Shown here in pieces: positions 11,760 to 14,689 of a stretch of 64,000 bases of DNA. The position numbers and the translations under genes were made by a program. Below the pieces are notes generated by a model, which was not told the DNA's origin, made no database searches, and saw only the letters and a list, made by a program, of their open reading frames with translations. The DNA is from Phaeodactylibacter xiamenensis (GTDB taxonomy: Bacteria; Bacteroidota; Bacteroidia; Chitinophagales; Saprospiraceae). Within the stretch, counting starts at the first letter, position 1; every line of letters begins with the position of its first letter. The stretch is taken from the NCBI RefSeq assembly GCF_000759025.1, contig NZ_JPOS01000079.1:124001-188000 (forward strand), written 5' to 3'.

Positions 11760-12833
11760 TCACGGGAAGTTCTTTGAAAATTGGAAAGAAAGATTCATAG
11801 CATGCCTGACATAAAATCGGACAGCCCTCAGTCCAATCTGAAACACGGACAAGCTATCGATTCGGTCTTTACGGCAGAATTTACCCAACTGGGCTGAGGT
11901 TCGGGCATCAAACTCGAACAAGATACAGATGATGAAAGCCAGGCTAGCCACGATCAAGAGATTGAACAAGGTTTGAGGCTCTTCAATCCTGGTTTTATGA
12001 ATGTGGAATCCGCGAGATTTGATATCGCCGAAAAAGGTTTCAATGTGATACCTCTTTCGGTAATATGTTTCGGCTTGCGGGCCATATTCCAAGCTGGTCA
12101 ACAGATACAAAGGTCGGTCATATCGGGTCCGGTCATGCCAGAACAAGACATTGACTGGCCCAAACCCTTGCTTAGTCACATACATTTGGGGCAGGAACAA
12201 GCTTTTTTGACCGATACTTGCGGCCAAATGGCCAAAAGCCGAAGCATTCTCCATGTCCGGATGATCGGCTACCAAAGTATCCTTCGCCGTTTTTAGCACG
12301 TACTCCCAACCGTGAGCCAAACAAGACTGTTGCAACTCGCAGCCGTCGAATTCGGCATCTCCCAGCAGGAAAATCCGGCAATCCTGTTCCAGGATACTGT
12401 CCATAAGCATCGCCACTTGACCGATAATGGCCACGTGCATGTGTTCCGGGAAATGGCCTTTGGGAGCTTTACGAACTACCCAACAAATGGGAATGGCTCG
12501 CCTGCGCCAGATTACACTGACCATCAGCGCCATGCAGTCTTTGCCCACACAGGAGCCATCGATGGCCAGAACTAACTCTCCAGCCTTGCTCAGAGAGTGG
12601 AGAATCGGAAGAAGGTAGGGTATAAAGTGTACCGTGACATCGGTCCACTTATTTTGCAACCAACGCTTGGCCTTCTTGACCCGACTTTCCAGGTCAGTGG
12701 GGTCTTCCATATGGCGGCCCAACTCTGATAAAGATGCCCGGCCACCTTTGATTAAGGCACCTAATAAACCAGATAAGACGGTTAATCGACGCAAGGCGTT
12801 GCCTTGTGGAACCTCAGATTGATGCTTTATCAA
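11760..12833 (-). CDS. IS4-family-like DDE transposase
   Basis: LVLAIDGSCVGKD, LLGDAEFDG and YYRKRYHIETFFGDIKSRGFHIHKTR (Y-R-E-K-type signature); lies between matched TIRs. Confidence 0.88.
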   Translation of the reverse strand: MIKHQSEVPQGNALRRLTVLSGLLGALIKGGRASLSELGRHMEDPTDLESRVKKAKRWLQNKWTDVTVHFIPYLLPILHSLSKAGELVLAIDGSCVGKDCMALMVSVIWRRRAIPICWVVRKAPKGHFPEHMHVAIIGQVAMLMDSILEQDCRIFLLGDAEFDGCELQQSCLAHGWEYVLKTAKDTLVADHPDMENASAFGHLAASIGQKSLFLPQMYVTKQGFGPVNVLFWHDRTRYDRPLYLLTSLEYGPQAETYYRKRYHIETFFGDIKSRGFHIHKTRIEEPQTLFNLLIVASLAFIICILFEFDARTSAQLGKFCRKDRIDSLSVFQIGLRAVRFYVRHAMNLSFQFSKNFP

Positions 12834-13070: not shown

Positions 13071-13109
13071 CATCGCTCTTAGAAAAAAGGGTATTTGAAA
13101 TATTAATAA

Positions 13110-13185
13110 GCGGATGTAGCTCAGCTGGTAGAGCGCAACCTTGCCAAGGTTGAGGTCGCGGGTTCGAATCTCGTCATCCGCTCCA
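13110..13185 (+). tRNA. tRNA-Gly(GCC)
   Basis: GCGGATG/CATCCGC acceptor stem, CAACC-TTGCCAA-GGTTG anticodon arm, GCGGG-TTCGAAT-CTCGT T arm, U73, encoded CCA. Confidence 0.95.
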
Positions 13186-13231
13186 CTAAAAGTGGAGCAA
13201 AGTGTTGCTTCACTCATTTGAAAATAAGTAA

Positions 13232-13418
13232 GCGGATGGAGCGTCCCGATAACTATCGGGACTAAGGTTGAAGTCCGGCGGGGCCCCGACAAGCTTTGCT
13301 TCGTCGGGGATGCAGACAGGCAAAGCCTCGTCTGCATTCGAACTTGCCCTGACAAAACCTTTTCGTCAGGGTCTCGCTTGTCCGACGTAGCCTTGGCGAA
13401 GTAGGATCATCCGCTCCA
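13232..13418 (+). other. tRNA-Gly-derived remnant with hairpin insertions, copy 1 (187 nt)
   Basis: Starts gcggatg and ends catccgctcca; the interior holds palindromes GTCCCGATAACTATCGGGAC, CCCCGACaagctttgcttcGTCGGGG, ATGCAGACaggcaaagcctcGTCTGCAT, CCCTGACaaaaccttttcGTCAGGG. Confidence 0.8.
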
Positions 13419-13491
13419 CGAAGTGAAGCAAAATGTTGCTTCACGACAATTGAAATAAAATTAGTAAGCTCTAATATTTTAGGGCAAATAA

Positions 13492-13621
13492 GCGGATGTA
13501 GCTCAGCTGGTAGAGCGCAACCTTGCCAAGGTTGAGGTTCGGCGGGTCCCGACGAAGCACAGCTTGTCGGGATGCAGACAGGCAAAGCCTGGTCTGCATT
13601 CGAATCTCGTCATCCGCTCCA
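13492..13621 (+). other. tRNA-Gly(GCC)-like gene interrupted in the T arm by two hairpins (130 nt)
   Basis: Intact acceptor, D and anticodon arms; between GCGGG and TTCGAAT lie TCCCGACgaagcacagcttGTCGGGA and TGCAGACaggcaaagcctgGTCTGCA. Confidence 0.85.
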
Positions 13622-13688
13622 AATTGATGGAGCAAAAAAGTTGCTCTTTTGTACTGAAAAATAAGATTAGCTTTAGCAAAGCAAATAA

Positions 13689-13764
13689 GCGGATGTAGCT
13701 CAGCTGGTAGAGCGCAACCTTGCCAAGGTTGAGGTCGCGGGTTCGAATCTCGTCATCCGCTCCA
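13689..13764 (+). tRNA. tRNA-Gly(GCC), second intact copy
   Basis: Same sequence as 13110-13185. Confidence 0.95.
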
Positions 13765-13810
13765 CTAAAAGTGGAGCAAAGTGTTGCTTCACTCATTTGA
13801 AAATAAGTAA

Positions 13811-13997
13811 GCGGATGGAGCGTCCCGATAACTATCGGGACTAAGGTTGAAGTCCGGCGGGGCCCCGACAAGCTTTGCTTCGTCGGGGATGCAGACAGGC
13901 AAAGCCTCGTCTGCATTCGAACTTGCCCTGACAAAACCTTTTCGTCAGGGTCTCGCTTGTCCGACGTAGCCTTGGCGAAGTAGGATCATCCGCTCCA
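13811..13997 (+). other. tRNA-Gly-derived remnant with hairpin insertions, copy 2 (187 nt)
   Basis: Same as 13232-13418 by eye. Confidence 0.8.
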
Positions 13998-14040
13998 AAT
14001 TGGAGCAAAGCAGTTGCTTCACTCATTTGAAAGGAACTAA

Positions 14041-14187
14041 GCAGATGTGGCTTCCCGGTAAAACAGAGGTAGATCATCCCTGTGCAACCGGGATTAAGTT
14101 TGAGATCGCGGGTCCCGACGAATCACAGCTTGTCGGGGATGCAGACAGGCAAAGCCTCGTCTGCATTCGAATCTCGTCATCCGCTCA
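14041..14187 (+). other. Third, more diverged tRNA-Gly-derived remnant with hairpin insertions
   Basis: gcagatgtggcttcccgg... followed by gcgggTCCCGACgaatcacagcttGTCGGGgATGCAGACaggcaaagcctcGTCTGCATtcgaatctcgtcatccgctca. Confidence 0.75.
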
Positions 14188-14189
14188 AA

Positions 14190-14218
14190 AGCCTTCTGTA
14201 CGCAGAAGGCTTTTTTTG
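14190..14218 (+). terminator. Rho-independent terminator after the tRNA-Gly cluster
   Basis: AGCCTTCTG tac GCAGAAGGCT TTTTTTG. Confidence 0.85.
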
Positions 14219-14326: not shown

Positions 14327-14651
14327 GCCCGGATGGTGGAATTGGTAGACACGCAGGACTTAAAGCAATTTGAGTGCGCCGGCGGAAACGCCGGATGTAG
14401 AACTTCTCAAATTCGGGGAAGCCTTCTCCTTTATCGGAATGGTAATCCCGAGCCAAGTCCCGGCCTAGCCGGGGAAGGTGTAGAGACTTGACGGGAAGCG
14501 CCTAAGTACGGACAATCGTCGGTATACGGTGAAGAGAAAGTCCAGGTCACAAATCCTGACATTGATCGTCAGGGGCAGCGAAAGCTGTAGCTGGTAAGAA
14601 AATCCTGTGGCCATTGCGGCCGTGCGGGTTCAAGCCCCGCTCCGGGTACCA
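14327..14651 (+). tRNA. tRNA-Leu(UAA), split gene: exon 1 14327-14361, exon 2 14599-14651
   Basis: Joined exons GCCCGGATGGTGGAATTGGTAGACACGCAGGACTT + AAAATCCTGTGGCCATTGCGGCCGTGCGGGTTCAAGCCCCGCTCCGGGTACCA closely match bacterial tRNA-Leu(UAA). Confidence 0.93.
14362..14598 (+). ncRNA. Group I intron (IC3/cyanobacterial tRNA-Leu-like), ~237 nt, ORF-less
   Basis: Inserted after U34; ends in G; P-like CTCAAATTCGGGGAAGCC, Q-like GGTAATCCCGAGCCAAGTCC, R-like AAGGTGTAGAGACTTGACGGGAAGCGCC, S-like GAAGAGAAAGTCC, P9-like GCAGCGAAAGCTGT. Confidence 0.92.
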
Positions 14652-14689
14652 CAGGGTACTAACTATAGTACCCATTGAAACGCTGACGA

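Follow-up and report, generated by a model that had tools for sequence, protein, structure and literature searches.

The window analysed in this study is a stretch of 64,000 nt (C79:124001-188000) of the 7.87-Mb draft genome of Phaeodactylibacter xiamenensis (164 contigs), and the locus described below lies within a 292-kb contig. Six tRNA-Gly units stand there in tandem and share one terminator-like hairpin (Table 1), which is conserved in the congeners G200 and G201 and in genome G098. The original prediction of two intact and four hairpin-bearing tRNA-Gly copies was confirmed in number, but the four represent only three distinct ones, copies 2 and 5 being identical, and the GCGGATG acceptor start that it assigned to them is GCAGATG in copy 6. 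In detail, positions 13105-13404 and 13684-13983 match with 100% identity over 300 bp, and the local copy number is in part the product of plain tandem duplication. Covariance scoring, proposed with the prediction as a check, recognised the two intact genes equally well; among the hairpin-bearing copies only copy 3 scored in Rfam, where it still counts as a tRNA despite ~52 extra nt in its T-loop, and copies 2, 5 and 6 received no tRNA call from either ARAGORN or Rfam. A DDE transposase gene lies immediately upstream of the array, and a tRNA-Leu(UAA) gene split by a group I intron is located on its other side. The intron (E 1.8e-11, slightly under the gathering score) is present at the syntenic locus of G201 (L223, read by eye) and absent from that of G200 (L219), so that it is polymorphic within the genus.

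Table 1. Features of the tRNA-Gly array and its flanks, in window positions.
Feature	Position	Strand	Basis or remark
DDE transposase (PF01609)	11760-12833	-	
Array of six tandem tRNA-Gly units	13110-14186	+	
tRNA-Gly(GCC) copy 1, intact	13110-13182	+	ARAGORN; Rfam 69.8 bits
Copy 2, remnant of a tRNA-Gly that keeps its acceptor ends and carries five hairpins	13231-13412	+	sequence, folding
Hairpin GTCCCGATAACTATCGGGAC in place of D arm and 5' half of anticodon arm, copy 2 (a type present three times in the genome, each time in an extra tRNA copy)	13243-13262	+	
T-loop hairpin 1, CCCCGAC AAGC ttt GCTT c GTCGGGG, copy 2	13284-13309	+	
T-loop hairpin 2, ATGCAGAC AGGC aaa GCCT c GTCTGCAT	13310-13337	+	reads into T-loop TTCGAA
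CTTG + hairpin 3 (CCCTGAC...GTCAGGG)	13343-13371	+	insertion 3' of TTCGAA
CTTG + hairpin 4 (TCCGACGTAGCCTTGGCGAAGTAGGA)	13377-13406	+	insertion 3' of TCTCG
Hairpin 4 itself, TCCGACGTAGCC TT GGCGAAGTAGGA	13381-13406	+	
Copy 3, complete tRNA-Gly with double hairpin between G53 and T54 of T-loop	13492-13618	+	Rfam 40 bits
Copy 3 double hairpin, TCCCGAC...GTCGGGA + TGCAGAC...GTCTGCA	13547-13598	+	z ~ -7
tRNA-Gly(GCC) copy 4, intact	13689-13761	+	ARAGORN; Rfam 69.8 bits
Copy 5, repeats copy 2 in tandem at 579-bp spacing	13810-13991	+	repeat comparison
Copy 6, hairpin in place of D and anticodon arms, double hairpin in T-loop	14041-14186	+	
Copy 6 hairpin TCCCGGT...ACCGGGA	14053-14093	+	
Copy 6 T-loop double hairpin	14113-14165	+	
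Terminator-like hairpin AAAAGCCTTCTG/CAGAAGGCTTTT + T run, single, end of array	14187-14214	+	
tRNA-Leu(UAA), split by group I intron	14330-14655	+	
Group I intron	14352-14568	+	RF00028, 48.5 bits

The hairpins of the array are located at the tRNA loops (D, anticodon and T) and, as had been predicted, follow one design, with an outer stem ending in GAC/GTC, a 3-5 bp inner stem, a short loop and usually one bulged base. Their folding z-scores ranged from -4.3 to -7.0 for single modules and from -4.9 to -6.0 for whole copies, and 0 of 200 dinucleotide shuffles folded as well. All hairpins listed in the prediction proved real, and the inventory was extended by the fourth hairpin of copy 2 and by those on the D/anticodon side of copies 2 and 6. 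Hairpins 3 and 4 are each preceded by CTTG, a prefix that hairpins 1 and 2 do not carry, and the outer stem of the TCCCGGT...ACCGGGA hairpin in copy 6 is common to an extra tRNA-Asn copy (L051, at the anticodon site) and to a D-loop hairpin of G200. Generic terminators were considered and rejected as an identity of these hairpins, which have no T runs and lie within the tRNA body; the only terminator-like hairpin is that at the end of the array.

Pattern searches of the whole genome, likewise proposed with the prediction, showed that the hairpins recur, and do so nearly only in extra tRNA copies. All three genome copies of TCCCGATnnnnATCGGGA are found in such copies, two in the tRNA-Gly array and one in tRNA-Asn, and each of the four genome copies of TGCAGACn(8-16)GTCTGCA lies in the array. 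Of the seven matches to CCCGACn(8-18)GTCGGG, four belong to the array and a fifth to the T-loop of a 3' tRNA-Glu copy, making five in tRNA copies (Gly, Glu); the other two fall in a coding-like stretch and an unrelated repeat. Further tRNA types carry palindromes in place of their arms: CCCGTACGGG stands for the anticodon arm in three tRNA-Met copies and for the T arm in a tRNA-Met 3' piece, and TCCCGGTAAACCGGGA substitutes the anticodon-arm positions up to 34 in a tRNA-Asn copy.

Several other tRNA-related loci were observed in the same genome. At L335 (tRNA-Leu(UAG)) and L063 (tRNA-Arg(UCU)), short 3' tRNA fragments lie downstream of the intact gene, that of L335 with a TCCCGGT...ACCGGGA hairpin just before it; a GIY-YIG nuclease motif was not seen at either locus. 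L047 (~1314-2060; G000:C10:184.3-185.1 kb) contains a tandem run of five tRNA-like units, each ~151 bp long, which ARAGORN did not accept; under the tRNA model four of them score 28.6-29.9 bits, and an insert in the T-loop is present in the last. L049 (~1457-1561; G000:C105) is a 105-nt tRNA-like gene scoring 52.4 bits, enlarged in the anticodon region and close to the end of a small contig. At L014 (~1450-1700; G000:C92), CCGACGTAGTTTAGAACGTAGTCGG hairpin units are repeated and flanked by GCCGGGCG-type repeats, unrelated to tRNA.

The T-loop hairpin pair is also found at the orthologous tRNA-Gly locus of congeners G200 and G201, and in congener tRNA-Glu copies (G199/L068 and G200/L067). G200 (L219) shares hairpin 3, CTTG prefix included; hairpin 4 and its prefix are absent there and the site is continuous (TCTCG^TCATCCGC), apparently an empty site. 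In G098, tandem 52-bp units are composed of the tRNA-Gly 5' end and a hairpin, and both hairpin number and truncation differ between copies and congeners. The occurrence of one hairpin type in a tRNA-Glu copy of this genome and, among congeners, at the orthologous loci of tRNA-Gly and tRNA-Glu bears out the structure-conserved family of mini-elements that had been proposed from the array alone.

An automated comparison with intact tRNAs in Saprospiraceae and other Bacteroidota yielded ~69 distinct hairpin inserts, spread over the spare copies of many kinds of tRNA and including a few weak cases; the genomes are mostly drafts or MAGs, in which the copy number of identical tandem repeats may be wrong. 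Most of the 69 inserts fold better than at least 97 of 100 shuffles. The insertion site is conserved per tRNA type, and the hairpin sequence varies between genomes with its pairing retained. In detail, the site is q28^36 for tRNA-Asn in several genera, and is occupied by other hairpin sequences in one Thermodesulfobacteriota MAG and another MAG; it is q38^51 for tRNA-Asp, the D-loop for tRNA-Arg and others, and G53^T54 of the T-loop for Gly, Glu, Val, Leu and Met tRNAs, and in tRNA-Val a hairpin also stands in place of the entire anticodon arm. A strict T-loop scan gave six hits that were real and two that arose by chance. For the tRNA-Asn site, eight sequences hand-trimmed to a 7-bp stem showed pairing in 96% of cells and a covariation of 0.536 vs. 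0.120 when shuffled, with 0 of 500 shuffles as high. Consistently with the predicted family, identical tRNA positions thus hold different, still palindromic hairpins in other genera.

A 28-bp cassette, CCTGTCTAACTGGCGTTAGCCAGGTAGA, is identical in the tRNA-Val and tRNA-Leu T-loops of different genera, appears with two mismatches in a tRNA-Met T-loop, and occupies many non-tRNA sites in one genus with constant borders. The identity of the cassette across these sites and its constant borders indicate discrete hairpin units that can move. Many TCCCGAT...ATCGGGA matches in other genera (those of G003 and most of those in G211 and G201) also lie outside tRNAs, and therefore the restriction of the hairpins to tRNAs is not universal.

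The extra tRNA copies were further compared with small genes for SLX1/UPF0213-like GIY-YIG nucleases, beside which they usually lie and whose association with tRNA genes is strong. The hairpin-bearing tRNA-Glu copy of this genome closes a series of two intact tRNA-Glu genes, a 101-aa GIY-YIG gene and the 3' tRNA-Glu copy with its double hairpin; an intact GIY-YIG gene followed by a tRNA-Met fragment lies ~9 kb from the tRNA-Met array, and broken GIY-YIG pieces remain at tRNA-Ser and tRNA-Asn loci. One GIY-YIG protein encoded here shares 90% and 78% identity with proteins of Phaeodactylibacter genomes (family Saprospiraceae). Among the tRNA loci scanned in this genome, with counts compiled by hand, a GIY-YIG gene or remnant was present at 4/7 loci with tRNA fragments vs. 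0/22 without (Fisher p 0.0015). In a family-wide sample, 64 of 70 GIY-YIG genes adjoin, or are close to, a tRNA or a piece of one on the same strand, a figure that is valid for this subfamily and not for all GIY-YIG proteins, the 70 loci being the best-scoring hits. An intact same-strand tRNA lies within 250 bp of 47 of the 70 genes (36 upstream, 11 downstream) and within 1 kb of six more, 11 of the remaining 17 have tRNA fragments near, mostly beside the gene, and 0 of the 70 have an opposite-strand tRNA only. Adjacency by chance was estimated at ~0.1%, well under 1%, from ~40 tRNA genes in 7.9 Mb. GIY-YIG genes distant from tRNAs are present in this genome (G000) as well.

The GIY-YIG tree, built on few columns and with many open forks, groups by tRNA amino acid, with 30 label changes vs. 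59.4 when shuffled (0/200), and its hosts are mostly of different genera. Tandem units of tRNA piece, terminator and GIY-YIG gene are found in many genomes, with ~300-500 bp between the tRNA pieces and GIY-YIG as the sole gene. The proteins, of ~85-100 aa, score well above the cut-off for the GIY-YIG domain (PF01541), with Y4, Y6, Y17, G19, R27, H31 and E63 invariant in alignments, and are predicted to be a single GIY-YIG domain with C-terminal helices; no DNA-binding region was seen outside the catalytic domain, at this length and in the predicted model. Their nearest solved relatives in both sequence and fold are UPF0213 and SLX1. A phage origin was considered and rejected, as the GIY-YIG genes had no match in a phage collection and none was confirmed in viral contigs. 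No GIY-YIG ORF or remnant was found in or near the tRNA-Gly array (13.1-14.2 kb) or at the congener tRNA-Gly genes; in G201, a GIY-YIG pair lies behind the tRNA-Leu gene that neighbours the tRNA-Gly locus.

Taken together, the spare tRNA copies, hairpins and nuclease gene have the look of traces left by a so far undescribed selfish element dwelling in tRNA genes. With moderate confidence, we regard the tRNA-Gly array as one case of a Bacteroidota-wide pattern that would arise by a route of GIY-YIG nuclease, duplication and hairpin cassette. Small free-standing SLX1-like GIY-YIG genes, each lineage observed with one tRNA type, would inhabit and cut tRNA genes. Breaks in or near the tRNA gene would be repaired via recombination between tRNA copies, and may thereby have left the tRNA pieces that are observed duplicated in tandem, with or without the nuclease gene; for phage SegB, such tandem duplication has been shown experimentally (PMC13096335). 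A redundant copy, free to change, would then take up mobile hairpin cassettes at the loops of the cloverleaf, the cassettes being positioned at G53^T54 of the T-loop, around 34/35 of the anticodon, or in the D-loop. Hairpins that ruin the copy as a tRNA, as a cutting target and as a recombination repeat would be retained, so that the palindrome would persist as its sequence turns over. The DNA cut would be that of the tRNA gene, perhaps as an extruded cruciform, which would match the SLX1-like fold. In the tRNA-Gly array the nuclease gene has presumably been lost, and the nuclease step there is inferred from kindred loci.

A bolder form of this explanation is possible but tentative, namely that the genes constitute a new class of minimal selfish elements in Bacteroidota, each an SLX1-like GIY-YIG nuclease devoted to one tRNA gene, which would cut structured tRNA DNA at the loops and have its own copy protected by hairpins. 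The cassettes would then sit exactly at the loops that are cut, making the redundant copy uncuttable and non-recombining, and selection would act on the hairpin structure, leaving the sequence free to turn over.

Four points tell against the route by nuclease, duplication and cassette. The tRNA-Gly array and the orthologous tRNA-Gly genes have no GIY-YIG gene; the proteins, at ~85-100 aa, are without the DNA-binding part of known homing enzymes, which leaves target recognition unexplained; the working tRNA would also be a target unless recognition reaches beyond the tRNA; and since cassettes lie away from tRNAs in some genera, GIY-YIG need not be what moves them. Its main rival, which we consider rather doubtful, is passive decay, in which tandem duplicates are redundant, REP-like palindromes land in these non-essential copies, and GIY-YIG has no causal part. 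In its favour, tandem duplication is evident, palindromes ending in (T)CCC...GGG(A) are dispersed outside tRNAs in some relatives, and the tRNA-Gly array has no GIY-YIG gene. However, of the three hairpin types of this genome, two are confined to tRNA copies and one lies mostly in them, and random landing is not expected to concentrate hairpins in ~1 kb of 7.87 Mb. Passive decay is further opposed by the loop positions, fixed per tRNA type across genera, and by the coincidence of tRNA-fragment loci with GIY-YIG loci.

That the hairpin copies are functional structured RNAs under structural selection, such as tRNA mimics or decoys for tRNA-cutting nucleases or RNase P, is unlikely in our judgement, although pairing is retained through sequence change, copy 3 fits the tRNA model with its hairpins protruding from the T-loop, and the one terminator common to the array makes co-transcription of the copies likely. 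Many copies are without an acceptor stem, they are often mere 5' or 3' fragments, and truncation and hairpin number are variable between copies and congeners. We consider it very unlikely that the loci are remnants of tyrosine recombinase islands attached at the 3' ends of tRNAs. Islands of this kind typically leave 3' tRNA fragments downstream of a gene, but 5' fragments occur here too, the ~300-500-bp unit holds GIY-YIG only and is too small for an integrase, and the hairpins would be left unexplained. An assembly artefact of a repetitive short-read locus is hardly credible. A 579-bp repeat with 100% identity over 300 bp is poorly resolved by short reads, and the genome is a draft of 164 contigs; however, the array lies inside a 292-kb contig, separately assembled congener genomes show these hairpin modules at matching tRNA sites, and the one-contig relative G062 has the same architecture.

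If the route by nuclease, duplication and cassette is true, a small parasite would be widespread on the tRNA genes of a large bacterial phylum, its footprints, such as hairpin-split tRNA copies and spurious ORFs over tRNAs, having formerly been mistaken for noise; it would also account for tRNA calls that fail or come out oversized in these genomes. It would provide a tractable system in which to ask how a minimal nuclease is maintained at an essential gene, how palindromic mini-elements choose their sites, and whether structure-specific nucleases read a cloverleaf in DNA.

Among published systems, a keyword search of one open-access library found no description of chromosomal tRNA-linked GIY-YIG genes with hairpin-replaced tRNA copies, and a report available by subscription only is possible. 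Phage SegB and other free-standing GIY-YIG homing endonucleases resemble the present system in having a GIY-YIG gene in tRNA gene regions (PMC13096335 and PMC2988022), and SegB also in the tandem amplification of tRNA and nuclease units; for SegB, microhomology is reported that the nuclease gene shares at its 3' end with the tRNA (PMC13096335). Unlike SegB, the genes studied here are chromosomal genes of Bacteroidota, encode ~85-100 aa with the catalytic domain only, and form tRNA-type-specific lineages, and hairpin-replaced tRNA copies are not mentioned for SegB in the available part of its description. Of the features of SegB-type elements, a GIY-YIG domain with its active site and linkage to tRNAs were found, whereas a separate DNA-binding region, and presence of the gene in the array, were not. 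The UPF0213 and SLX1 proteins are similar as the nearest solved relatives by sequence and fold; SLX1 differs in working with SLX4 on branched DNA in eukaryotes, and the deposited entries for UPF0213 are annotated as hypothetical proteins.

Rickettsia palindromic elements are palindromic repeats within genes, mainly protein genes, and are larger than the hairpins described here. We know of no tie between them and tRNA copies or GIY-YIG. REP elements are GTAG- or CGTC-tagged palindromes linked to RAYT (PMC3733652, in which RPE is also named). Like the present hairpins, they are imperfect palindromes of 20-40 bp, often paired, sometimes in genes and in some cases with bulged stems (PMC3733652), and the CTTG ahead of hairpins 3 and 4 resembles their short tag; the unpaired GTAG/CGTC tag by which REPs are defined in PMC3733652 was found at none of the array hairpins. 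REPs are dispersed in moderate to high copy number, whereas the present hairpin types occur 3, 4 and 7 times in the 7.87-Mb genome, with few occurrences outside tRNA copies. A cognate RAYT/REP pair was rejected, the three Y1_Tnp genes of the genome being on other contigs and flanked by different palindromes. Mitochondrial DHE/RHE elements are similar in being single or double hairpins that behave as discrete insertable units, diverge between taxa and are also found in structural RNA genes (PMC2800124). They are mitochondrial and mostly intergenic, whereas the present hairpins are bacterial and sit at the loops of redundant tRNA copies beside a nuclease gene. As a whole, the combination is somewhat like SegB-type homing joined with DHE- or REP-type hairpins, yet it misses defining features of each.
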